Assembly (NCBI GenBank): GCA_037349105.1
Contig: JAYJMM010000107.1
Span: forward strand, 248,001 to 312,000
DNA length: 64,000 nt
Reading direction: 5' to 3'
Source of the DNA: Limnomonas spitsbergensis
Lineage: Eukaryota > Chlorophyta > Chlorophyceae > Chlamydomonadales
The notes beneath the pieces are model-generated. The model was not told the DNA's origin, searched no databases, and worked only from the letters and a program-made list of their open reading frames with translations. The stretch's first letter is position 1; the number at the start of each line of letters is the position of its first letter. Made by a program: the position numbers and the translations under genes. This document shows, one piece after another, positions 21,938 to 60,439 of the stretch.

Positions 21938-24900
21938 ATGCGCCAGCGACTAGTTACCGCTCCCTCTAAGACACCGCTCAGGCAGTCTGGCAGGCCCGTC
22001 GTCAGGCCTTGTCGCCGTTCCTGCCGTTGCTACAGCAGCAGGCCGGAGATGGCTTCAGCCGCTGCGCAGTTAGTGTCAGAAGATCCACCTGCTGCCCTAC
22101 ATGCGGATGTTGAGGAGCCCGCCCCCAGCAGCAGCCCCTCAGCCTCTGTTACCCAAGAACAGCCTGAGCTCGACGAGAGGGAGCTACTGCGGCGGAAGCG
22201 GATATCAGAAGCCAACACCGGGAGAGTGCCTTGGAACCTTGGCAGGAAGCACTCTCCAGGTGCCCTGCATGGAGCCTATGCATGCATGGCACCACGCATC
22301 ATGCGGCCCCATGAGACACATGAGCATGGCATGGAGCATCGTTTCTCTCAGTAGTCATGCATGCTGCTGCTGCTACTTCATAGCCATAGCAGACAGGGTC
22401 CCTTCCTGCTAATGTTTGACCATGCCAAGACTGTGATGTGGTTTTAAGCCAGTTCAGATATTTGCAGCGTGCTACCTGATCGATATGGCCCAGCCTCCAG
22501 GACTGATGGTGGCATGTGCTTGTCGCAACCTGAATGCAGGAGTCATGCATTTCAGTTGCGACTTGAACATGGCCAACACAATTTGTTATTCGACCCGCAG
22601 TCCCGCCCCACACATTCCTTTCAATCTCAGCCCCCCATGAAGTGAGCGTCTGACAGCAACCATACCACAGCTGATGTCCAGGTGCCTCAGCTACAATTCA
22701 GCTATGGTTAAATGGATGAACACGGCCTGCAGACTGAGGTTCCTAGTGCAGCAAGCCCTGCTTGGGCCCCCTGCTAGGCCGGTTATGGCTTGGTCCACAT
22801 CGGCTCGGTGATGGCTTCCCAGTAGCCTGCATTAGGTGACTTGGTGCACACTACCATAAAATGGAACCACTCCACTATTATTTTTAGCTTTCACCCCACC
22901 AACTTTGGAGGGGGTTGCTTTGGAGAATAAGTCATGACAGGTCCACTGCCAGCAGCCCAGGCCGCTGGACTTATCTGCACCAGCCTCCCCCGGCCGCAGG
23001 CCGTGACGTAAATGAAGCATGCTGAGAATACCACCGCCCATCACACGCCCTCCCCACCGCCCATCACGCACCTCCCCACATAATTGAAGCATGCTGAGAA
23101 TACTACCGCCCGTCACGCGCCCTCCCCACCTCCCATCACGCACATTCCCCACAGTAATGAAGCATGCTGAGAATACCATCGCCCATCACGCGCCCTCCCC
23201 ACTGTCTTGCATGCGAACCTCCAGAGACAATTGCAAAGATAAAAGCGCGCACAGCCCAGGCCATGCTGCGGCCTGACGTGGCAGAGAAGACTAAGAGCGG
23301 CGTTGAGAGGCGCGTGCAAGTGCACAGCGAGGAAACGCGGGTGAGAGCACCGGGGCAAGGGGGTAATACATTGCCCCCTCTTGTATTGCCCCCCTTGTAT
23401 ATAATACAAGGGGGGCAAAATGAAGGGGGGCAGAGGGGGCAATACAAGAGGGGGCAAATGGGCAATACAAGAGAGGGCAAGGGGGCAATACAAGAGAGGG
23501 CAAATGGGCAATACAAGAGGGGGCAAAGGGGCAATACAAGAGGGGGCAAAGGGGCAATACAAGAGGGGACAAAGGGGCAATACAAGAGAGGGCAAGGGGG
23601 CAATACAAGAGAGGGCAAGGGGGCAATACAAGAGAGGGCAAATGGGCAATACAAGAGGGGGCAAGGGGGCAATACAAGAGGGGACAAGGGGGCAATACAA
23701 GAGGGGACAAAGGGGTAATACAAGAGGGGGCAAATGGGCAATACAAGAGAGGGCAAATGGGCAATACAAGAGGGGGCAAAGGGGCAATACAAGAGAGGTC
23801 AAGGGGGCAATACAAGAGGGGGCAAATGGGCAATACAAGAGGGGGCAAAGGGGCAATACAAGAGGGGGCAAAGGGGCAATACAAGAGGGGGCAAAGGGGC
23901 AATACAAGAGGGGGCAAAGGGGCAATACAAGAGAGGGCAAGGGGGCAATACAAGAGAGGGCAAATGGGCAATACAAGAGGGGGCAAAGGGGCAATACAAG
24001 AGGGGGCAAAGGGGCAATACAAGAGGGGGCAAAGGGGCAATACAAGAGGGGGCAAGGGAGCAATACAAGAGGGGGCAAGGGGGCAATACAAGAGGGGGCA
24101 AAGGGGCAATACAAGAGGGGGCAAGGGGGCAATACAAGAGAGGGCAAAGGGGCAATACAAGAGGGGGCAAAGGGGCAATACAAGAGGGGGCAAGGGGGCA
24201 ATACAAGAGGGGGCAAAGGGGCAATACAAGAGGGGGCAAAGGGGCAATACAAGAGGGGGCAAGGGGGCAATACAAGAGAGGGCAAATGGGCAATACAAGA
24301 GGGGGCAAAGGGGCAATACAAGAGGGGGCAATACAAGAGGGGGCAAAGGGGCAATACAAGAGGGGGCGAGGGGGCAATACAAGAGGGGGCAAGGGGGCAA
24401 TACAAGAGGGGGCAAAGGGGGCAATACAAGGGGCAAGGGCGGCTATGACGGAAGGTACCCGGCAGTTGTTGAGGGTTGAGATGGCAGTTGGTTTAGACAT
24501 GGGATTTAGGAGGGAGGGATTTTGGCAGTCGGCTGTCGTCTGATTTGCCGGCTGGAACGCATGTCGTGTGCCACTGCCGCTGCAACGTGTTTGGTTTGCC
24601 ATTGGCGCTGCACAGGCCAAGATAAAAGAGGCACTGCTGGCTAACCGGCGGGCAAAACGGATAGCCCAGGGCCTACCGCCAGACCCAGAGGTGCGACGCC
24701 AGCTCCTGCAGCCATCGGGGTTCAGGCCAAGGGATGGGCGACAGGCGGTAGCTTGGGAGGTTCAAGCGATGGGCGAGTGATAGTCCCTGGTCTGTTTTAT
24801 TGCCTAGGGTGCCGGTACGGTATACCGGTTATCGGCCATTTTATTCCCATTTACCGTCATCCCCTTTTATTTCCCATTTCTTCCCATTTACTGTCTGGGG

Positions 24901-48034: not shown

Positions 48035-48303
48035 AAGTCAATGACATTACACCTCTGGGCCCTGCTCAAAAAGGCTCGGCTGCGTGGGCGCCCAACTGTC
48101 CACTGGAAGAAAAGAAAGGACCGTAAGTTAAGAGGGAAAGAAGGAAAAGAACACAAAGGAGAAATAAATACCCCCCAAAAAGGAAAAGGCCTACAAGGAA
48201 AACATACACACGGGTTTTAAGGTTAGCTTACTTAGCTCCCCGTCGTCCAGTACAGTCCACCGTGGCGGGTTGGTGGATGGGCTGCATTTTGAATTGCAAG
48301 GTG
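48035..48303 (-). mobile_element. LINE 3' tail and flank interrupted by the split-repeat element
   Basis: Tail at 48037-48100 (tcaatgacattacacctctg, gcgtgggcgcccaactgtcc). Further right a minus-strand open segment (stop about 48235) reads towards the insertion site at 48304 and continues, in frame, beyond 57978. Confidence 0.5.
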
Positions 48304-48932
48304 GCTGTCACAGTATATTACCGTATACGTGACAGAACCGTTTAGACCGCAGTTAGCGGCCTCGGGGACTCCGCAGCTTCTCTGCGGAGTCTACGGATTT
48401 GAACTGAGACCTAGAAACCCGCTTACGCCGGTTGATTGTACCGTATTCTGAATTGGGCCTGCCGGGTCCCTGTATCCCGGCAGTTGCCTAGGCTAACTAC
48501 TTCGTCCCTTTCTAAAGGACAGACCTCTTATGTAACAAGCTCCGGCCGGCATCCAATGCATGAGGCCTGAGGTGTTCATAACGTCAGTACCTATATCAAG
48601 TCAAGACTAGCTCCGCCTCAGCTGAACTACCTGGAGACAAGTACCTCAGTAGTGAACCGAGACCCTGCCGAAGAAGAAGTACGCAGTCAACCTCCCGGCT
48701 ACCTCACCGCGTGTTGCGCGGTAAGTGCCCTTAACATAGCCCAGCTGGATCGCGCCCAGACGGCCAGAAGGCCTACGCTACCATACGTCTATTGCTATAC
48801 ATACAAATATCCAGCTCTACTGCTTAACTCGCTGAGCACTCGCAGCCAGTGAAGAGTCACTGAGCCTGCCCGTAGGCGTCCGTCACTGCCGTGAGGAAAG
48901 AAGTCCGCCACGGACCTGAAGCGCACATCGCG
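48304..48932 (+). repeat. Split direct repeat A1
   Basis: 629 bp, starts gctgtcacagtatattaccg and ends cacatcgcg. It contains an inverted repeat ctgtcac-N17-gtgacag at its left end (48305-48335), a 10-bp hairpin gactccgcag/ctgcggagtc and an 8-bp hairpin ctgccggg/cccggcag. A strong splice donor word gcg/gtaagtg lies near 48722. The 66-codon frame inside lacks an ATG and is not called as a gene. Confidence 0.9.
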
Positions 48933-49650
48933 TGTCCTTTAGAAAGGGACGAAGTGGATTTAGCCTGATCAGCTTGATTCGCCAATTCCTGCTAAAGGTG
49001 CTTGTGCAGCGGAATTGGAATTTTGTTTGCATGCAAACGACCTTGGACAGCGTTTGAACTGCACTTTGCTGTGGTAATCTCCAGAGAGAGATTGCCAAGT
49101 TAAACCCTGAGAATCGCTGAGCGTGGCAGCTTAGTGTTGAGTCCAGGAGAGGCTTGAAGATCTGGCTGTGGATTTAAACACCCAGCAGATAATTACCTGT
49201 GTGACTGCAGATTGTGATCAGGTGGATCCAATCTTTCATCATTGACAGAAGTGAACTTGTGGATAGAACATCCAAGTTTGAAATCTTGTGGGTGTACCAA
49301 AGGATCCCCGCAGGGACGCAGAGCTGAGCGGACACTACGCAAGAGGCTACATCCACGCAGGGCGTGTGACATCCACGCAGGACGTGAGACATCTAGAAGC
49401 AGCCCAGCCAGCAAGGTGGGAAGAACTGAAAAGGCGAAGGAGGATTCCGCCAGATTGAAATTAGTGAGCAGAAAAGCAGGAAGGCAAGGCCTATCCTGCA
49501 TATTGCTGTACCTGCCATCCGATCTTGGCTCGCAAGCCCTCACCAGATTGCAGTAGGAACAAGGGGGCAGAAGCCTAAAGTTAGCAGATCCTGTAGGGGG
49601 TGTCGCCAGCACGCTTGCAGGACCGTGCGGTTCGTAAATTGCCTGTAGGA

Positions 49651-52600
49651 ATGACAGACGTAGATCTAAATCCCGATAGGCACCAGCACCCTGACGCCCA
49701 ACGGAGAAGTGGGCGTCTGAGGGGGCTGGAGCCGGGTGTAAACCTGATGGAAGCTAGTGATGAGCTGGCTGCAGAAGCCCTGTTGGTGGCGGCGAAGCTG
49801 GCAGGGCCAGTGGGACCGCCCGCAGGAGACAGCAAGGTGCCAGAACCGGGCCGCGTACCGCCCAGAGAGGCAGGGGCGCAGGCAGACGGCTCAGCACTAG
49901 TGTCGCACAAAGGGATCAGCCGAGGTGGGCGAGTGCCCCAATCAACCCTGGATATTCCAAGGCAAGGCCTGGAATATGCGCAGTGGTTGAGACAGGGAGG
50001 AAGAACCCCTGAGCTGACATTGGACCCGGCCGTTGAGGTGTCGCAGACCAGTGGCGCAAATCGGGACAGTGGTCCAGAAGGCGCACCAGAGCAGGACTTG
50101 CCCAGTGGGGCAGGGGCCGTGCAACGAGTCAAGAACGAGCCCGATCACGGTGATCAAGGGGCAGGCACCTCGGCAGCCCCAGAGGGGGCAGCAGAGTGCG
50201 GAAGAGCAAGAGACCTAGGCAGTGGGCCAGAATACGCGACGCAGAAGAGGCTAATGAGAGTGGCAAGTGCTGCGCAGTGCGTTAAAAAGGAGAACGGGAC
50301 GATGCCCCGTGGTGGAAGTCAGGTGATCAGGAAACCTGCAGATCTGCAGGCGGTGGGTGGAGCACAAGCCGCCACTGCGGAATGGCCCCCAGTAAAAAGG
50401 AAGGAGGATCTGGCTCAGCCAAGAGGGTGGAACAGGCTAGGGCAGTGGGCCACTGGAGTGTGGAAAAGTGTGTGTGACGCAGAGCAGGCGGGGTTAAGCA
50501 GTCTGGCTGTGCCCCAGCAGCGCGCACCCTTGGAGGCATTGACCAAGTGTATGGAGCAGCCAGGTAATCAGGTGTCCCTCAACGGCTGGTCCATGTTTGA
50601 CATCCTCAGCAGTGACAGTGAGCCAAGTCCCAGGCACCTGATCAACTGTATTACGGCAGAGAGTGCCGGCCCACCCAGGCAGGATAGCCTGGTAGCTAGC
50701 GAGCAGCTGCACCTGATCAACTGTATTACGGCAGAGAGTGCCGGCCCACCCAGGCAGGATAGCCTGGTAGCTAGCGAGCAGCTGCACCTGATCAACTGTA
50801 TTACGGCAGAGAGTGCCGGCCCACCCAGGCAGGATAGCCCGGTAGCTAGCGAGCAGCTGCACCTGATCAACTGTGTTCCAATAGGGAATGCTTTTTCACC
50901 CAAACCAGTGACCGGTGGCTGCGAGCCAAGCCAACTGCAGGTGCAGGCGTCACGGCTGGGTTTGCAGATGGAGGCAGTTCCTGTGACACCTGTCGGGATC
51001 GGTGGCTGCGAGCCATGCCAACTGCAGGTGCAGGCGTCACGGCTGGGTTTGCAGAGAGAGGCAGTTCCTGTGACACCTGTAGGGATCGGTGGCTGTGAGC
51101 CAGGTCAACTGCAGGTGCATGCGTCACGGCTGTGGTTGCCGAGGGAGGCAGCCCATGTGACACCTGTGGCGGCCGCTGGCTGTGAGCCAGGCCAACTGCA
51201 GGTGCATGCGTCACGGCTGTGTTTGCAGATGGAGGCAGTTCCTGTGACACCTGTCGGGATCGGTGGCTGTGAGCCAGACCAACTGCAGGTGCAGGCGTCA
51301 AGGCTGGGTTTGCAGAGAGAGGCGGTTCCTGTGACACCTGTAGGGATCGGTGGCTGCGAGCCATGCCAACTGCAGGTGCAGGCGTCACGGCTGGGTTTGC
51401 AGAGAGAGGCAGTTCCTGTGACACCTGTAGGGATCGGTGGCTGTGAGCCAGGTCAACTGCAGGTGCATGCGTCACGGCTGTGTTTGCCGAGGGAGGCAGC
51501 CCATGTGACACCTGTGGCGGCCGGTGGCTGTGAGCCAGGCCAACTGCAGGTGCATGCGTCACGGCTGTGTTTGCAGATGGAGGCAGTTCCTGTGACACCT
51601 GTAGGGATCGGTGGCTGTGAGCCAGACCAACTGCAGGTGCAGGCATCACTGCTGTGTTTGCAGAAGGAGGCAGTTCCTGTGAAAACTGTGGTGGCCGGTG
51701 GCTGCGAGCCAAGCCAACTGCAGGTGCAGGCGTCACGGCTGTATTTGCAGAGAGAGGCAGTTCCTGTGACACCTGTAGGGATCGGTGGCTGTGAGCCAGG
51801 CCAACTGCAGGTGCAGGCGTCACGGCTGTGTTTGCAGAAGGAGGCAGTTCCTGTGAAAACTGTGGTGGCCGGTGGCTGTGAGCCAGGCCAACTGCAGTTG
51901 CAGGCGTCACGACGGTGCGTGCAGAGGGAGGCAATTCATGTGACACCTGTAGGGATCGGTGGCTGTGAGCCAGGCCAACTGCAGGTGCAGGCGTCACGTT
52001 TGTGTTTGTCGAGGGAGGCAGCCCATGTGACACCTGTGGTGGCCGGCGGCTGCGAGCCGGACCAACTGCATCCGTGGGAGCAGAAGCTGACCCAAAGGGT
52101 GGCTGAGGAACCAGTTGGCCCAAGTGAGGTTGAGGACCACGAGCACAGGCAGGCGCCGGTGCTGGTGCAGATGCACCAGCCAGAAGAAGATGGGCCTGTC
52201 ACACCACCAGTGCCAGCAGCTCCAGGAGGGGTCCAGGTGCCAATATCAGAACCAGGTGCGGCCCAGCAGGCCAGCAAACAGCTGGAGGCGGCAGAGAATC
52301 CTGAGGGGTCAGAGGAGCAGGGGATCTCCATACCCATGCTGAGGGAAAAGGTGAACTGGTACCAGCAGAAGCTCAAAGGAATGGCCAGGCAGCTGTGGAT
52401 GGCCAGGCAGCCAGGGATTGCCTGGCAGATGAGAATGACCAGGCAGCTGAGGATGATGAAGCGTCGCTTGGCAAATAAACTGCAGACGCTGTTGCCACAA
52501 GACAGGGCAGCTGACAGTGACGTGGATGAAGCTAGGAGCAGCAGGTCTCCGGTGCCAGCACCCGTGAACAACAGCAGCAGCAGGAATGTGTGCCTGGTAG

Positions 52601-55600
52601 CATTCCCTGCTGCGGTGCCTGCAGATGTGGAGCTGGCCAGGCTCTGGGAGGATTGCGCAACAGGTGACCGTCAGCAGCAGATGGACACCCGCAATGCCAT
52701 GCGTCAGGCCATGAGGTATTACCCCGGAAGAGTATGCATGTTCTGCGGGTTCGAGTGCGAGCACAGCGACAGTGCATGTGAGCACCTCATGGATGCCAAC
52801 ATCCAGAGGGGGCTGGAGCCGGGTGAGGACCCGGCTGAGGCCAGTGATGCAGAGATCAAGCGCGAGGGAGCTGAGATCAAGCCTGCTGTGACCAGGCAGG
52901 CCCCGCAGAGCAGCAAAGAACCACAGGAAAAGTCAGCTGTACCGGTGGGAAAGCCGTGGGCTGACCTAATATCTGAGGAAGAGCTGCCTGATCCGATACA
53001 AGAAGAGAAGGGGCGGCAGCCAGTGACAGGGCTGCGCCCAAGGCAGCCAATGCGACCACGCAGGGTGCCGGTTCAAAGAGGGGCGGGATCCACAGTTTAC
53101 GGGACGCCGCTGTCCAAGTTTACGCCCAGTGTGGGCAGACCTGTGCAGACACCCAAGGAGGGATCTAGCAGCCAGATGCGAGCAGGCGGCGGCCACAAGG
53201 AAATCCTGCGCGGATTTTATCAAGGTACAGCACAGGCGCAGGATACCAGACCTAGAGAGCCAGAGCGCTCCGGGACTGGGGGAGTAGTGTGCGGCAATGA
53301 GGAGTCAGAAGGACCGATCGGTTGGGCAGGAATTTTGCAGTGGGCAACAGACCTGTGGAAGCAAGTTTGCTCCAGGACGTTCTTGCATTTCCAGGACCAG
53401 GTCACAGCCATTGAGGAGTTCAAGGCCCATCATCTGAGGGGATGGGCAACAAAGGGCATGCTGGGTATCCCCCACACAGGGCAGGACAGGGCGACGCTGT
53501 TAGGCGCCCTTGGACAGGTATCCAAGGGAAGGGCTGGACGCGAAGCAGCCCTGGCTGTTAAGGCCTTCGCAGATGAGTGGTGCAATGAGGTAACAGGAAA
53601 TCAGGTGGAACCGGGATCCGAGCCAGAAGATGAGGAGGACCAGGCATGGGAAGGATTTAAAACAGCGGGGCAGCGGCCTGAGGAGCTCAGGGAAGTCCAA
53701 AGGTGGCAGCAGCAAGCAAGAACCGCGCCAACCCCAACACTCAGATCTGAGGTTTTTGAGGTCAGCAGCGAGCCAAGCCTCAGGGGGCGGCCAAGGGGCA
53801 GGGAAGAGCCCAGGGCCAGTAGCCCAGCCGCCAGCGAATGGGCGGAGTTGACTAGCCGATCGCTGGCCAGGATGGCTGAGCAAGGCGTAGCAACGCGCAG
53901 AGCAAACAGGCAAGAGTCCTATGCACTCCTGCGCATAATCGAGGACAAAGAGAACACAGGCCAGGAAACCCAGGTGGATTACATCGAGGAGTTCCTGAGG
54001 AAAAGGCAAGAGGGCGCAGCAAGAGGACCACAACAGGACGAGCCTGCAGGCAGTGTGCGCTTCAGTGGACCAAGAAGGCAGGAAACCAGAGGGGAAACAC
54101 AATCTGATTCCTACGTCAGGAATTACACAGGAGGGAAACAGCCAAGCTGGCAGAGCCAGGAGCCGCCCAGGGGGCAGGCAGACGGCAGGGAACAGCCAAA
54201 CTGGCAGAGCCAGGAGCCGCCCAGGGGGCCGGCAGAATACGGCAGGAGGACACAGCCAGGCGAGCCAAGCCAGAAGCCGCCCAGGGGGCAGGCAGAATCC
54301 GGCAGAGGATCACAGCCTCGGGAGTCTGGCCCAGAGGAGAGAAAAAGCAGAGATGAGGCTGATCAGCCGCCACCCGAGAGGAGCAGAGGCTCCGCGAGCA
54401 GGGCCGGCAGACAGTCGTCCGGGGGCGGACAAGCCCAGGATGGGGCTGGCCGCAGAAACAGCCAGTACCAGCGCAGTCGCAGCCCATCAGGGGGCGACAG
54501 TAGCGGATCTGGATCAGACTCCAGTTTAGACGAGTCGGGGTCAGGTGGAGCGGACAGGCGCGGGCCAAGGGCCAGGCGGGAGTCCAGCGACCAGGAAATG
54601 AAGAGGCTCGATAGGGAGCAGACAAGGATGAACATGCAGCTGCTGCAGCAGATGGTCCTGCAGCTGGCAGGGGTGGCCAAATATACCAAAATCCCAGCTA
54701 TCCAAGGCAACGTGCCGGTGTTGGATATGTCACACCCGGGCGCGGTTGCAGCCAAGAAATATTGCCAAGAGTGTGGCTATTGGGGATCACACAACAGACT
54801 GGCGCTGTCGGATGAACCACCGGCGCTGGCCGTGGTGGCAGGGGAAATTGTTGGATCCTGCCAGTCACCCTCGGCCATGGCCATGCTCGTGCGATCCCTG
54901 GCCAGGTTGTGGAACAACAAGCCTGCCAGTGTGGGGCCGTTGATGGTGGCCATCAGGGCAGCGCCCCATGCAGGGGACAGGGCCACCAAGGAGGTGGAAA
55001 GGATCAGGGGGCAGTGGGCCGCTCCAGCAGAGGAGCAGTGCTGTGCGGTTTCCCTGCTTACCCTGTGGATCAGGGTGGTAAAGGAGGAGGTGGGGAAGCC
55101 GACCTCGGATGAGAGATCCGCGATCACCAACCTCAAGCTGGGAGTCAAAACAACCTTGGATCCAGAGGTCAAGCCAGAGGAGACAGTGGAGGCGTTTGCG
55201 CACAGAGTACTGTCCACAGCAGAGCTGCTGCAGATCTCGAGGGATGCAGTGGACTACTTTGGCAGAAGGCACTCGGTCTCGCACATGTTCTATGAGGGGC
55301 TGCCAGTGGCCACCAGGGTCAAGCTGAGCAAGTTCGTGATCACTGTGCCAGGGTACTTGTGCATGACCGATGAGGAGCAGATCACAGTGCTGACGCAGCA
55401 GGTAGTGCTGTGGGAGAAGTTCGCCCTGGAAATGGGGGACCTGATGGTCACAGATCACAGGCCTACGGCAGAAGAGGAGAATGAGATGGAAGAGGCAGAA
55501 GAGGAGAATGAGATGGAAGAGGAGGAAGAGGCGGATGAGGAGGAGGAGGCGCGAGAGGCTTCTTGGAGGAAGAGACTTTTTGGAGAAAGATATTCCTTGG

Positions 55601-55659
55601 ATGAAGAGAAGCCAATGTCACCCAGCGAGCGGTCCATAAATGGGCCAAGGTGGCGCTAG
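49651..55659 (+). CDS. Giant gag-like protein of the split-repeat element
   Basis: 2002 residues from the first in-frame ATG (the frame is open to GTG 49600). Layout: residues about 329-408 hold three 25-aa repeats (HLINCITAESAGPPRQDS...); 422-798 hold 13 copies plus a partial of a 29-aa repeat (GGCEPGQLQVQASRLCLQ + REAVPVTPVGI). About 1029-1045 is a Cys/His cluster CMFCGFECEHSDSACEH, possibly a zinc knuckle. About 1350-1650 is rich in Gln/Arg/Gly/Ser (PPRGQAE repeats, RSRSPSGG). About 1650-1940 is a globular, Trp-containing region with a second CQECGYWGSHN motif, the likely capsid-type domain. A Glu-rich tract (1941-1970) precedes the C-terminus. WATGVWKSVC and WATDLWKQVC occur about 960 residues apart, suggesting an internal duplication. 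No polymerase motifs. The gag role is inferred from element architecture. Confidence 0.72.
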   Translation: MTDVDLNPDRHQHPDAQRRSGRLRGLEPGVNLMEASDELAAEALLVAAKLAGPVGPPAGDSKVPEPGRVPPREAGAQADGSALVSHKGISRGGRVPQSTLDIPRQGLEYAQWLRQGGRTPELTLDPAVEVSQTSGANRDSGPEGAPEQDLPSGAGAVQRVKNEPDHGDQGAGTSAAPEGAAECGRARDLGSGPEYATQKRLMRVASAAQCVKKENGTMPRGGSQVIRKPADLQAVGGAQAATAEWPPVKRKEDLAQPRGWNRLGQWATGVWKSVCDAEQAGLSSLAVPQQRAPLEALTKCMEQPGNQVSLNGWSMFDILSSDSEPSPRHLINCITAESAGPPRQDSLVASEQLHLINCITAESAGPPRQDSLVASEQLHLINCITAESAGPPRQDSPVASEQLHLINCVPIGNAFSPKPVTGGCEPSQLQVQASRLGLQMEAVPVTPVGIGGCEPCQLQVQASRLGLQREAVPVTPVGIGGCEPGQLQVHASRLWLPREAAHVTPVAAAGCEPGQLQVHASRLCLQMEAVPVTPVGIGGCEPDQLQVQASRLGLQREAVPVTPVGIGGCEPCQLQVQASRLGLQREAVPVTPVGIGGCEPGQLQVHASRLCLPREAAHVTPVAAGGCEPGQLQVHASRLCLQMEAVPVTPVGIGGCEPDQLQVQASLLCLQKEAVPVKTVVAGGCEPSQLQVQASRLYLQREAVPVTPVGIGGCEPGQLQVQASRLCLQKEAVPVKTVVAGGCEPGQLQLQASRRCVQREAIHVTPVGIGGCEPGQLQVQASRLCLSREAAHVTPVVAGGCEPDQLHPWEQKLTQRVAEEPVGPSEVEDHEHRQAPVLVQMHQPEEDGPVTPPVPAAPGGVQVPISEPGAAQQASKQLEAAENPEGSEEQGISIPMLREKVNWYQQKLKGMARQLWMARQPGIAWQMRMTRQLRMMKRRLANKLQTLLPQDRAADSDVDEARSSRSPVPAPVNNSSSRNVCLVAFPAAVPADVELARLWEDCATGDRQQQMDTRNAMRQAMRYYPGRVCMFCGFECEHSDSACEHLMDANIQRGLEPGEDPAEASDAEIKREGAEIKPAVTRQAPQSSKEPQEKSAVPVGKPWADLISEEELPDPIQEEKGRQPVTGLRPRQPMRPRRVPVQRGAGSTVYGTPLSKFTPSVGRPVQTPKEGSSSQMRAGGGHKEILRGFYQGTAQAQDTRPREPERSGTGGVVCGNEESEGPIGWAGILQWATDLWKQVCSRTFLHFQDQVTAIEEFKAHHLRGWATKGMLGIPHTGQDRATLLGALGQVSKGRAGREAALAVKAFADEWCNEVTGNQVEPGSEPEDEEDQAWEGFKTAGQRPEELREVQRWQQQARTAPTPTLRSEVFEVSSEPSLRGRPRGREEPRASSPAASEWAELTSRSLARMAEQGVATRRANRQESYALLRIIEDKENTGQETQVDYIEEFLRKRQEGAARGPQQDEPAGSVRFSGPRRQETRGETQSDSYVRNYTGGKQPSWQSQEPPRGQADGREQPNWQSQEPPRGPAEYGRRTQPGEPSQKPPRGQAESGRGSQPRESGPEERKSRDEADQPPPERSRGSASRAGRQSSGGGQAQDGAGRRNSQYQRSRSPSGGDSSGSGSDSSLDESGSGGADRRGPRARRESSDQEMKRLDREQTRMNMQLLQQMVLQLAGVAKYTKIPAIQGNVPVLDMSHPGAVAAKKYCQECGYWGSHNRLALSDEPPALAVVAGEIVGSCQSPSAMAMLVRSLARLWNNKPASVGPLMVAIRAAPHAGDRATKEVERIRGQWAAPAEEQCCAVSLLTLWIRVVKEEVGKPTSDERSAITNLKLGVKTTLDPEVKPEETVEAFAHRVLSTAELLQISRDAVDYFGRRHSVSHMFYEGLPVATRVKLSKFVITVPGYLCMTDEEQITVLTQQVVLWEKFALEMGDLMVTDHRPTAEEENEMEEAEEENEMEEEEEADEEEEAREASWRKRLFGERYSLDEEKPMSPSERSINGPRWR
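50635..50874 (+). repeat. Three in-frame 75-bp repeats in gag ORF
   Basis: Near-identical 75-bp units starting at 50635, 50710 and 50785, with a partial at 50860. They encode a 25-residue unit beginning HLINCITAES. Confidence 0.95.
50914..52065 (+). repeat. Thirteen in-frame 87-bp repeats in gag ORF
   Basis: The 29-codon unit begins GGCEP every 87 bp from 50914 to 52045. Units 1-4 and 5-8 show the same order of variants, implying a four-unit (348-bp) duplication. Confidence 0.95.
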
Positions 55660-56850
55660 GCTTCCAACAAAGAGGAGGAGTCAGCCCTTGCGGAGCTTAC
55701 CGAGACCTGAGGCCGAGCCCAGAGCGGCAAGGCCGCTGAGCACGTGACGTTACCCACGCCGTAACTGGCAATGGGCGGGCAGGCGCCTACAGAGCAGAAA
55801 ATGCAGACGCAGAGCGGCTTGTCCTAAGTAACCGGCAGGCAGTGGGCCGGCAGCCAGCGGACCGAAGACGGAAGATGCAGGATTGGAGTTAAAGCTATCG
55901 CAGCAACATAGTGAAAATTTGTTTCTCAAACACCGTAGCAGCAAGGCTACGGTAGTACATATGTTATGAAGATGATGAGCGAGGAGAATTAGTCAACTCG
56001 GGCGATGATAACACAGCAGGGGGCGGATCACGCTGCTACGGCGCACATTTCCTGTGGCCATTGAAGACCAGGCGGCTATGGCGCAGTGGGGCGAGAGCAG
56101 CGGTTGTTCTTAGCTTGACCTGATAACTTTGAAAATTTCTCTGTTTGCTAGCCAGTAGTGGGCTGAACAGCCTGGATTTGTAGGATTCTGCGCATTGCGC
56201 TTCAGCTGAGACTCGGTGGATTTTTTTAATTCTGATTGAAGAAGGCCTGAACCAGGCAGATTTGCTGAGACGATTTGAGCTTCTACGTACATATTTTCCA
56301 GAAGTTTAAAGATTCTGATTTCTGATGATTTCTGATGACTTCTGATGATTTCTGAACTTGGTTTCTGATGGTTTCTGATGATTGCTGAGGGTTTCTGATG
56401 GGTTCCGACCCTTTATTGCCTGCAACCAAGCATGACACTGGTGACGGTACCGGATTCTGTGTGGTCCGCCACGGGTTTCAGTGAATTTTTTCTTTGATGA
56501 ATTTCCTTGTGTGGATGTCCTGCAGCACATTTCCTGCAGTGGATTTTCTTCAGGGGATTTTTTTTTACCGACTGGCTGGATTGCAGTCAGATGTTTAGGA
56601 GGCTTCAGTGTTAGGGAACTGACAAGTTCTGGGCGTACAGATTTTGCTTTGAAAACAGCCTGAACCAGGCTGATGTGTGTATATAGCCTGAACCAGGCAG
56701 ATGCGGGGGACGGCCTGAACCAGGCAGATTTGCTTTGATATTTTGATCTTCTGAGGTGTACATATTGCCAGAAGTTTCTTTCTTTCAGTACCGACCCCTT
56801 TTTCCGGCTCCCAGCGCATGCCCTTTAGGCTTAACGCTGAGGAGCGGGGG
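55660..56850. other. Element 3' non-coding region
   Basis: No ORF above about 75 codons. It contains tttctgatga repeats (56318-56405) and four copies of gcctgaaccaggc-gat (about 56246, 56659, 56687 and 56712), two followed by related atttgcttt...ccagaagttt stretches. Confidence 0.7.
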
Positions 56851-57096
56851 GCGAGTGAAGTAGTAGGGGCGGTACCCACAAGACAGGGACACCCAGACAT
56901 TACCCCTAGGCAGAGAGACTTCCTGCTAGGGCCGAACCTTACAGTAGCCAGTTAACAGCTCTTGTCTGAAGTACAAGGAGTCTGTGTGTACGGTAATGTA
57001 CCGTGTTTATGAGTAGAAGGACACTTCTCTAAGGCGCCTTTACCGGAGATTCCGGAGTTTACCATATTGGCACGTTTACTGCTTTATGGTGCGACA
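56851..57096 (+). repeat. Split direct repeat B1
   Basis: 246 bp, gcgagtgaagtagtagg to ttatggtgcgaca; matches 57732-57977. Confidence 0.92.
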
Positions 57097-57734
57097 GCTG
57101 TCACAGTATATTACCGTATACGTGACAGAACCGTTTAGACCGCAGTTAGCGGCCTCGGGGACTCCGCAGCTTCTCTGCGGAGTCTACGGATTTGAACTGA
57201 GACCTAGAAACCCGCTTACGCCGGTTGATTTGACAGATTGTACCGTATTCTGAATTGGGCCTGCCGGGTCCCTGTATCCCGGCAGTTGCCTAGGCTAACT
57301 ACTTCGTCCCTTTCTAAAGGACAGACCTCTTATGTAACAAGCTCCGGCCGGCATCCAATGCATGAGGCCTGAGGTGTTCATAACGTCAGTACCTATATCA
57401 AGTCAAGACTAGCTCCGCCTCAGCTGAACTACCTGGAGACAAGTACCTCAGTAGTGAACCGAGACCCTGCCGAAGAAGAAGTACGCAGTCAACCTCCCGG
57501 CTACCTCACCGCGTGTTGCGCGGTAAGTGCCCTTAACATAGCCCAGCTGGATCGCGCCCAGACGGCCAGAAGGCCTACGCTACCATACGTCTATTGCTAT
57601 ACATACAAATATCCAGCTCTACTGCTTAACTCGCTGAGCACTCGCAGCCAGTGAAGAGTCACTGAGCCTGCCCGTAGGCGTCCGTCACTGCCGTGAGGAA
57701 AGAAGTCCGCCACGGACCTGAAGCGCACATCGCG
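57097..57734 (+). repeat. Split direct repeat A2
   Basis: 638 bp, equal to A1 plus a 9-bp insertion (tgacagatt, around 57230). Confidence 0.92.
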
Positions 57735-57977
57735 AGTGAAGTAGTAGGGGCGGTACCCACAAGACAGGGACACCCAGACATTACCCCTAGGCAGAGAGAC
57801 TTCCTGCTAGGGCCGAACCTTACAGTAGCCAGTTAACAGCTCTTGTCTGAAGTACAAGGAGTCTGTGTGTACGGTAATGTACCGTGTTTATGAGTAGAAG
57901 GACACTTCTCTAAGGCGCCTTTACCGGAGATTCCGGAGTTTACCATATTGGCACGTTTACTGCTTTATGGTGCGACA
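57732..57977 (+). repeat. Split direct repeat B2
   Basis: 246 bp, overlapping A2 by the shared gcg. It ends at gcgaca, followed by tggctgtca of the right flank. Confidence 0.92.
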
Positions 57978-58920
57978 TGGCTGTCAGCTCTCATCAACAC
58001 CTTGGTGGAGGGTGGCAGCCTCTGGCTAAGACTTCCTTGATGTGTGTTCATAATCCTCATATCAGGGGCAGCAGAGCGCTTGTTGAGATTCTCTGATGTT
58101 GAAGTGATGATGAGATATAATTGAATTGCCTCCGTGGCCCATTAGCCTAGGACACTCGGAACCCCTCTTGCCATTTCATTCTCCTGTGATTGTAAGCACG
58201 ATACTGCTCGAACTTAACACTCGTCTCGTAAACCTATCCGCCCAAGGAACCTCAGCAACAGGGGTCCTAATTCAATCAGAATCACGCTGATCACGAGGGG
58301 CCGTTTCTGAATTTTGCCCTTGGGTCAATACGGCATTCTTTGGCATCTGAATAAATCTCCAGCTCGAAAAACTTGCAGGCCCAGCATTTTGGGCATGGCC
58401 ACATCTTCTTCAAACTAGACGCATGCAAGATTGTGTGCCACCTTCAAAGAGGGTGAAGGATTTGCCTGACAATATCCTGACATCATATTTTGATATATAG
58501 TTCGTAGATTCCCTACGGTACAAAGCAATTCACTGTCCTACAAGAAATGGAGTATGGCAGTCAAAAGGCAGTACCCCCTATTTAATTTCAAGACATGTTG
58601 AAGTTCTTCGCATGAAATTAGTGCTCACACCCCGGCCTTCCTCACAAAGCTCGGTCGCATCAGCAAATAAAAGTCTGTAAGGTAACTCGAAAGAGAAGGA
58701 AAGAGAGAGGAATATTTGAGTCCTCCCCTTATATACCAGAAATAAATAAAATGACAGGATAATCAAAGCCCTAGGCTGTCCCCATGTAATTAAAAAGCAT
58801 GACGAAATATAAGAGTAAAAAGACAGGTCATGCAATCGGCGTGGGTGCCCCGATGTTATACCGTGTATTGTTTGTGCTTAAATAAGCAGTGCCTCAGGCT
58901 TGCGTTTTTCTGGGAACTCC
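57978..58920. other. Right flank of the element
   Basis: 57978-58100 carries a minus-strand open segment that joins the left flank across the insertion site. 58640-58800 has caaagctcggtcgcatcagc and gaaagagaaggaaagagag, resembling the LINE 3' UTRs at 31.8 and 33.6 kb. No gene recognised. Confidence 0.45.
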
Positions 58921-58984
58921 TCCAGCCTTGAGTGCAAGGTGATGAAATCACCCTCACCCTCCTCCTCGGCTGTATCCTCCCTCC

Positions 58985-60345
58985 CAAGCTAGAGGGAGAA
59001 GGGGGGGCAGCGGCAAGAGCATGAGGGAACGAGGGGGCATGGACAGGAGCAGGAGGGGGACGAGGGGGTAGGGACAGGAGCAGGAGGGCGATGAGGGATC
59101 AAGGGCAGGAGGGGACGAGGGGGAAGGTACAGGGGCAGGAGGGGGAGGAGGGGGCAGGGACAGGAGCAGAAGAGGGATGAGGGAGCAAGGGCAGGAGGGC
59201 ACGAGGGGGAAGGTACAGGAGCACGAGGGGGACGAGGGGGCAAGGACAGGCGCAGGAGGGGGACGAGGGGGCGAGAGCATGAGGGGAGAAGGGGCAGGGA
59301 CAGGAGCAGGAGGGGGACAAGGGGGCAGGGACAAGAGCAGGAAACGAGGATGGGACAGGGACATGAGGGTTACAAGGAGGAAGGGGCAGGAGCAGGAGGG
59401 GGAAGAGGGGGCAGGGGCAGGAGCATGATGGGGCGAGGGGGCAGGGAAAGGAGCAGGAGGGGGACGAGGGGGCAGAGACAGGAGATAGGGGGGGACAAGG
59501 GGGCAGGGGCAGGAGGGGAAGAGGGGGCAGGGACAGGAGCATGAGGGGACGAGGGGGTAGGGGCAGGAGGGGGCAAGGGGGCAGGGGCAGGAGTAGGAGG
59601 GGACGAGGGGGAAGGGGCAGGAGCAGGAGGGGGACGAGGGGGCAGAGGCAGGAGGGGGAGGGGGACGAGGGCGCAGGGACAGGAGCATGAGGGCGATGTA
59701 GGGGCAGGGGCAGGAGGGGACGAGGGGGTAGGGACAGGAGCAGGAGGGAGATGAGGGGGCAGGGACAGGAGCAGGAGGGGGATAAGGGGGCAAGAGTAAA
59801 AGGGGATGAGGGGGCAGGGACAGGGGCAAGAGGTGGACGAGGGGACAGGGACAGGATCAGGAAAGGAGGATGGGGCAGGGGCAGGAGGGGGACGAGGGGG
59901 CAGGGGCAGGAGCAGGAGGAGGACGAGGAGGCAGTGGCAGGGGGGGGACGAGGGGGCAGGGGCAAGAGCAGGAGGGGGGCGAGGGGGCAGGGGCAGGAGC
60001 AGGAGGAGGACGAGGAGGCAGTGGCAGGGGGGGGACGAGGGGGCAGGGGCAAGAGCAGGAGGGGGGCGAGGGGGCAGGGGCAGGAGCAGGAGGAGGACGA
60101 GGGGGCAGGGGCAGGGGGGGGGGCGAGGGGGCAGGGGCAAGAGCAGGAGGGGGGCGAGGGGGCAGGGGCAGGAGCAGGTGGAGGACGAGGGGGCAGGGGC
60201 AGGGGTGGTGACGAGGGGGCAGGGGCAAGAGCAGGAGGGGGGCGAGGGGGCAGGGGCAGGAGCAGGAGGAGGACGAGGGGGCAGGGGCAGGGGGGGGGAC
60301 GAGGGGGCAGGGGCAAGAGCAGGAGGGGGGCGAGGGGCAGGGGCA
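58985..60345. repeat. G-rich minisatellite (gacgagggggcaggggcagg)
   Basis: Imperfect units built from ggagcaggagggggacgagg and ggggcaggg. At 59940-60330 a higher-order unit of about 87-90 bp (marked by gggggcaggggcaagagcagg) repeats five times. Gly/Arg or Pro-rich frames on both strands are artefacts. Confidence 0.95.
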
Positions 60346-60439
60346 GGAGAACTGCTAAGGAAATAGCGCAATATGAAACACGGTAAGTGTATGTAGGCAC
60401 ATGCACGGCCTGGCTATATTTGTAAGCTACCCACCACGC

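Follow-up and report, generated by a model that had tools for sequence, protein, structure and literature searches.

A Gag-only retroelement with split direct repeats in Limnomonas spitsbergensis, its integrase-bearing relative and a possible route through joined ends

The element in the window and its family

The window analyzed here, a 64,000-nucleotide stretch of the green alga Limnomonas spitsbergensis (assembly GCA_037349105.1, contig JAYJMM010000107.1, positions 248,001 to 312,000), contains a retroelement in which a long gag-type open reading frame (ORF) is combined with split direct repeats in the order A1-ORF-B1-A2-B2. An original prediction, made from the letters alone, had placed this element at 48304..57977; the 3' end was correct, but 48304-48305 fall in the target-site duplication. 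The features of the element, in window coordinates, are as follows.

48306-57977: whole element, 9,672 bp, set between TGGC duplications
48302..48305, no strand: 5' target-site duplication TGGC, with a copy of the same 4 bp at 57978-57981
48306..48932, + strand: A1 repeat, 627 nt, beginning TGTCAC and closing CGCG; would represent the end of U3 followed by R and U5
48497..48521, + strand: putative self-primer CTACTTCGTCCCTTTCTAAAGGACA, complement of the primer-binding site (PBS)
48933..48954, + strand: putative PBS TGTCCTTTAGAAAGGGACGAAG, immediately 3' of A1
49600..55659, + strand: gag-type ORF, 2,019 aa
50825..52168, + strand: array of 87-bp (29-aa) direct repeats within the ORF
54877..55443, + strand: Gag end region common to the relative described below, 145/189 aa identical
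56839..56853, + strand: polypurine tract (PPT) GAGGAGCGGGGGGCG, immediately 5' of B1
56854..57096, + strand: B1 repeat, 243 nt, closing GCGACA
57093..57102, no strand: internal palindromic putative integration site GACA-GC-TGTC (B1/A2)
57097-57098: GC spacer between B1 and A2
57099..57734, + strand: A2 repeat, 636 nt
57734..57735, no strand: A2/B2 joint CGCG/AGTG, putative joining site of two complementary DNA (cDNA) ends
57735..57977, + strand: B2 repeat, closing GGTGCGACA
57978..57981, no strand: 3' target-site duplication TGGC

The four repeats lie where they had been predicted, and their order is standard for the young family to which the element belongs. Both pairs had been called essentially identical: B1 and B2 show no difference over 243 bp, and A1 and A2 differ solely in 9 bp missing from A1, which are present in the A1 of 17/17 other complete copies. 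The window copy measures 9.67 kb, compared with the usual 9.0 to 9.3 kb. The 5' end of the provirus is A alone and the 3' end is B-A-B, such that no identical complete long terminal repeat (LTR) stands at both ends; taken alone, A2-B2 resembles a TG...CA LTR. As predicted, coding capacity is limited to the gag-type ORF, without reverse transcriptase (RT), RNase H or recombinase, and a Pfam scan of its 2,019 aa returned no match. None of 7,974 scored candidates was a homologue of the Gag end region at E 0.001, IMG/VR yielded no relative, and the predicted structure of this region (mean predicted local distance difference test score, pLDDT, 38.7) was not used.

A search of the genome (260 Mb, 124 contigs) that used A1 and ~70 bp of the internal region found full-length matches at 98-100% at at least 40 loci (best 40 of 2,097 candidates scored). 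Twenty of the 39 non-window loci were fetched at length: 17 hold complete single gag-only copies, each with the A1-ORF-B1-A2-B2 order and private flanks; L022 is the start of a tandem, L021 is a truncated copy, and at L015 gag-only sequence has recombined with an RT-bearing element. The gag-only form was thus present at 18/20 loci, in line with the predicted young, multicopy, non-autonomous lineage; the deleted form has itself been amplified, rather than RT having been lost in a single copy. Among the 18 gag-only copies, the gag frame is stop-free over 1,877-1,880 codons in 10, shorter in two (1,825 and 1,796 codons) and interrupted in six.

Members of the family start with TG, end with CA and are flanked by short duplications. 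In the sequence 5' of A at 40/40 loci, two positions are tandem-internal, with B preceding, and 38 are outer ends starting TGTCAC (L021 and L022 have one 5' flank in common). Perfect 4-bp duplications flank 31/32 copies for which both flanks were read, the exception (L024) agreeing in 3/4 bases, and none of 18 tested reached 5 bp (0/18); mismatched pairings of flanks, used as a control, agree in 4/992. For one counted pair (L048 and L065), the 5' flank was taken from L021; it reads identically to that of L022, the true partner. One-sided flanks (L036, L039, L044, L045 and L066-L069) and the recombinant on contig C105 were excluded from this count. Two tandem dimers, A-int-B-A-int-B-A-B, each with one outer 4-bp duplication, were also seen (C72:152870-170526 and C113:5271232-5288895) and possibly arose by unequal exchange.

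A relative with reverse transcriptase and integrase

Relatives with the same A/B ends had been expected to add RT and a tyrosine recombinase. An RT-bearing, autonomous relative does exist, but in place of the recombinase it encodes an integrase of the D,D(34)E type. The only relative read end to end, a copy on contig C105, has one 4,315-codon frame with zinc knuckles (CCHC), RVT_1, RNase H, H2C2, rve and PHD domains, a C5-methylase match and an MDSA motif, which we take to be protease-like. The best Protein Data Bank match of this frame is Ty3 Gag-Pol (2e-72) and that of its integrase part is the PFV integrase (1.7e-14). The integrase triad D2689, D2749 and E2784, with 34 residues between the last two, is invariant across 10 aligned sequences (the C105 frame and nine homologues, of which six are from named green algae). 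The methylase-like domain (L029:6300-7200) is sited between RNase H and the integrase; its GWECQDLS motif is presumably catalytic, and a role in marking cDNA is possible.

Further copies of the relative are abundant. The integrase-PHD DNA occurs at at least 40 genomic places at 99-100% (best 40 of 836 candidates scored), and the 3' ends of 10 more copies that were read have the same B1-A2-B2 end. B lies directly upstream in 39 of the best 40 autonomous A-B units. Fourteen A1-A2 pairs could be formed among the best 40 A matches, with the autonomous 5' ends placed by coordinates only; 10 imply a length of 18.3-18.7 kb and four imply 12.9-17.6 kb, and A1 and A2 score equally in 9/14. B1 equals B2 in five of the nine copies, out of 11, whose repeats could be delimited, while up to 15 positions differ between copies.

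The C105 copy (C105:1711985-1732935, covered by L015, L029 and L030) is a chimera, of gag-only type over its first ~5.4 kb and of autonomous type over the remainder. In 200-base steps, identity to the gag-only copy L014 is 97.6-100% over that first part but drops to 68-82% beyond it; the gag frame of the C105 copy is shifted near L015:6400. As a direct parent of the gag-only form this copy was rejected because of these identity steps, which mark it as recombinant, and because a clean duplication is absent.

Homologues of the relative's RT region number 151; among the 120 listed, 115 carry rve, 33 carry a DNA methylase and none carries PF00589 (tyrosine recombinase). Those with a named organism come from green algae, with the exception of one bacterial metagenome-assembled genome (P0061, labelled Minisyncoccia bacterium), in which the algal-type retroelement protein is probably contamination. 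The PF00589 profile likewise had no match in the scanned element ORFs or genome-wide, although diverged recombinases may escape it, whereas the rve profile scored 150 places in the same genome. Several copies of rve-bearing, stop-free frames of ~5,513 codons (C104:2168020, C82:1534868 and others) probably belong to another family.

The gag-only form can be aligned with the relative on both sides of one large deletion. 3' of the Gag end region, for which dN/dS (the ratio of nonsynonymous to synonymous substitution rates) between the two is 0.13, the relative carries CCHC, the protease-like motif, RT, RNase H, the methylase-like domain, integrase and PHD, all absent from the window element. A segment of ~12.3 kb in the relative, from L015:6974 to L029:9354, corresponds to ~168 bp in the gag-only form, and the region 3' of the deletion is again homologous. 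Identity between the window and L030 is ~86% in A and ~75% in B, yet in a comparison of one copy per family (the window and L074) certain blocks are nearly unchanged. A keeps its initial ~56 nt with one mismatch, its final ~45 nt with two and a ~30-nt primer block that is identical in the A2 of L074, and B keeps its terminal 39 nt without any. These blocks comprise both integration ends, the primer and the outer U5, and their preservation in otherwise diverged repeats would be expected were one set of enzymes to act on the two families. The gag-only form is best read as a derivative of the RT-bearing relative that is mobilized in trans. At one locus (L062), 11 nt separate a gag-only A end from a B-A unit in inverted orientation, whose identity to that of the window is 83% and which is hence autonomous-like. 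This joint suggests, without proving, that gag-only and autonomous cDNAs were present together.

Landmarks of reverse transcription and the A2/B2 joint

The putative primer (48497-48521) matches the putative PBS (48933-48954) perfectly over 23 nt as an inverted repeat, compared with a maximum of 14 in 20 mononucleotide shuffles. One autonomous copy has an inverted 27-bp match to A 200-226, a single base away from the end of its A1 match. The stretch matching the PBS would lie in the RNA. Since the PBS abuts A1 and the PPT abuts B1, reverse transcription should stop at the CGCG of A and the AGTR of B, and the LTR in the sense of reverse transcription is B+A. The integration ends, however, lie away from these RT-defined LTR ends, at the internal palindrome GACA-GC-TGTC between B and A. 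Conversion of BA-int-BA to A-int-BA-B thus requires joining of both cDNA ends, and the joint is A2/B2.

Fifty such joints were read. Of the 47 with an intact B start, seven deviate from the standard length seen in the other 40, among which L055 and L080 each carry a substitution; because this tally selects on an intact B start, losses on the B side show only in the other three (L056, L062 and L070), which bring the abnormal joints to 10/50. Three neighboring boundaries served as controls and showed length changes in 0/83 (PPT/B1, 30/30 unchanged; A1/PBS, 22/22; B1/A2, 31/31). The B1/A2 sequence is identical in 30/31, with one substitution in L072. The excess at A2/B2, the sole length-variable boundary of the four compared, is significant (Fisher p 3e-5 for 10/50 vs 0/82, with the B1/A2 of L072 outside the 82; p 2e-4 without L062 and L070).

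Five abnormal joints consist of PBS or primer-complement sequence. L010 has an added T, L018 and L082 an added TG each, and L012 an added 12 nt of the PBS with a substitution alongside. In L070 (C120:3135601-3136200), A2 is followed by the primer complement and an inverted A, 225 nt in all, stopping exactly at the TG terminus of A; this is likely a snap-back product, its inverted site apparently cut by integrase and the product inserted with two A ends. B1 equals B2 in 14/18 copies of the gag-only family, which is weak evidence, as most copies are mutually identical. One further copy, L052 (C101:618042-619421), ends in B-A-B-A-B, with both joints of standard sequence and one duplication (tagt).

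A joined-end route and its alternatives

We consider it likely, from the structures compared here, that the element is a non-autonomous, Gag-only derivative of a Ty3-like, DDE-integrase family with split direct repeats, whose ends are joined and whose internal site is then opened. In the proposed mechanism, the 5' part of the transcript would fold onto the PBS and prime its own reverse transcription, as in Tf1. Synthesis from the PBS and PPT would yield a linear cDNA with the LTR B+A (BA-internal-BA), and its ends, CGCG on the primer side and AGTG on the PPT side, would be joined; host end-joining that yields a two-LTR circle is the simplest means. Instead of the cDNA ends, integrase would then cut the CA-GC-TG site inside the 5' LTR, and the resulting linear A1-internal-B1-A2-B2 would be inserted via a 4-bp staggered cut. 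Gag-only copies would retain the signals needed in cis, with the enzymes of the relative supplied in trans. With somewhat less confidence, though still on balance in favor, we propose that this is an LTR-retrotransposon lineage with an ordinary DDE integrase in which joining of cDNA ends is obligatory and integration proceeds through the internal CA-GC-TG junction, which would explain split repeats without a tyrosine recombinase and support Gag-only hitchhikers.

Several points weigh against this model, which is built on integrated genomic copies. None of the outer 5' ends (0/38) is preceded by B, meaning that just one of the two conceivable circle openings was found. The plain circle model does not predict such one-sidedness; conjecturally, the 5' LTR site may become double-stranded first. 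Half of the abnormal joints (5/10) are not, or not only, PBS sequence: L056 has TG and 7 nt of filler, then a shortened B, with its duplication intact; L078 has an added GTG with a substitution; L090 has a single added A; L068 has lost 47 nt on the A side; and L062 has the inverted unit described above. Among the autonomous relatives, one of the best 40 A-B units (C113:609532) is without B upstream, 5' ends are known from coordinates only, and the C105 copy, being recombinant, is without a clean duplication (5' ...CGCCA, 3' CCATGG...).

Alternatively, the A2/B2 joint may form by a jump of reverse transcriptase between the two cDNA ends, from right to left, after integrase has cut the site in the 5' LTR and with no ligated circle. 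We regard this as unlikely, but it is consistent with the PBS additions at the joint, and the one-sided opening could follow from it if the 5' LTR were double-stranded first. The filler and B-side loss in L056, the A-side loss in L068 and the tail-to-tail joint in L062 resemble end-joining more.

Because A2-B2 alone looks like a TG...CA LTR, it could also be an ordinary LTR, with B1 and A1 as passively copied remnants of an old deletion. This is very improbable: the joint varies with PBS-derived bases among young copies, next to constant boundaries; the PBS abuts A1 and the PPT abuts B1; and B1 agrees with B2 within 5/9 autonomous copies despite the differences between copies. The original prediction took the repeat order as diagnostic of PAT/Kangaroo-type elements, so that the window copy would be a Gag-only tyrosine-recombinase element moved by a recombinase-bearing parent. 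PAT/DIRS elements are not known to have a target-site duplication, unlike the family here. The 4-bp duplications thus contradict this view, as do the DDE integrase of the relative and the lack of PF00589 matches next to 150 rve places (with the proviso on diverged recombinases given above), and its chance is slighter still, even though A1-internal-B1-A2-B2 is called typical of DIRS retrotransposons in the portions covered of one study (PMC5890265). A nested insertion or misassembly has nothing found in its favor and is refuted by the same structure across many contigs with private duplications, including 17 other copies, and by the recurrence of B1-A2-B2 in the RT-bearing family.

Among known systems, Ty3/gypsy elements are the closest in enzymology, with RT-RNase H followed by a DDE integrase in the relative (one copy read). 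Ty3/gypsy duplications range from 4 to 6 bp, and the gag-only family agrees in duplication size and in its TG...CA ends, but differs in its 5' end of A only and 3' end of B-A-B. The TR-GAG elements of plants, which are non-autonomous LTR elements, also retain only Gag, but have simple LTRs in place of split repeats and an internal integration site. Green-algal relatives (in Pleodorina, Tetrabaena, Haematococcus, C. reinhardtii, Monoraphidium and Scenedesmus) have RT, RNase H, integrase and usually PHD, and are 39-53% identical to the RT-RNase H region of the relative among the matches listed. REM1, an element of C. reinhardtii, has an unusual structure.

The A-coding-B-A-B arrangement also occurs in PAT/DIRS/Kangaroo elements, such as SymbioDIRS-Dnmt3 as described in the portions covered (PMC5890265); the family here differs in its DDE integrase, 4-bp duplications and Ty3-like RT. 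KnitGypsy-Dnmt3 of Klebsormidium nitens (de Mendoza et al. 2018) is described, in legend text and other portions covered, as having repeats of DIRS structure, a Gypsy domain composition and a methyltransferase in Pol (PMC5890265), a combination that the relative here shares in its Gypsy domains, DIRS-type repeats and methylase match in Pol. This likeness is one of description, in domain content and repeat structure. The terms 'target site', 'circular' and 'PHD' do not occur in the main text of that paper, and the portions covered contain no Gag-only derivative and no discussion of mechanism. As in the Tf1/sushi self-priming group, going by the parts of the source consulted (PMC7175516), an RNA stretch is complementary to the PBS, but the primer here lies ~190-215 nt inside A and the complementarity is 23 nt rather than 11.

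The architecture is thus already known from KnitGypsy-Dnmt3, while the gag-only derivative and the evidence for joined ends appear to be new within the literature searched. In the titles, abstract beginnings and passages covered, there was no Gag-only split-repeat element and no DDE-integrase element integrating from joined ends, and no paper on TOC1 came up. In the retroviral two-LTR circle-junction model, integrase was thought to act on the internal symmetrical junction, a view doubted once linear viral DNA proved active, according to the passages covered (PMC11054761); here, joined ends are demanded by the structure of the provirus. A lineage with obligatory end joining would, if confirmed, be the natural counterpart of this abandoned retroviral model, and the joint scars in dozens of young insertions would preserve the joining of cDNA ends before integration, a step once proposed for retroviruses and then doubted. 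Whether a DDE integrase can routinely integrate from a joined-end substrate becomes a testable question. Split direct repeats have been used to file elements as tyrosine-recombinase retrotransposons, a rule that fails here, and the two families offer a clean autonomous/non-autonomous pair in which to study how Gag-only elements persist.

Elsewhere in the window, 58954-60406 and 23113-24492 are repetitive stretches with long proline-rich or repetitive frames that are probably non-genic.

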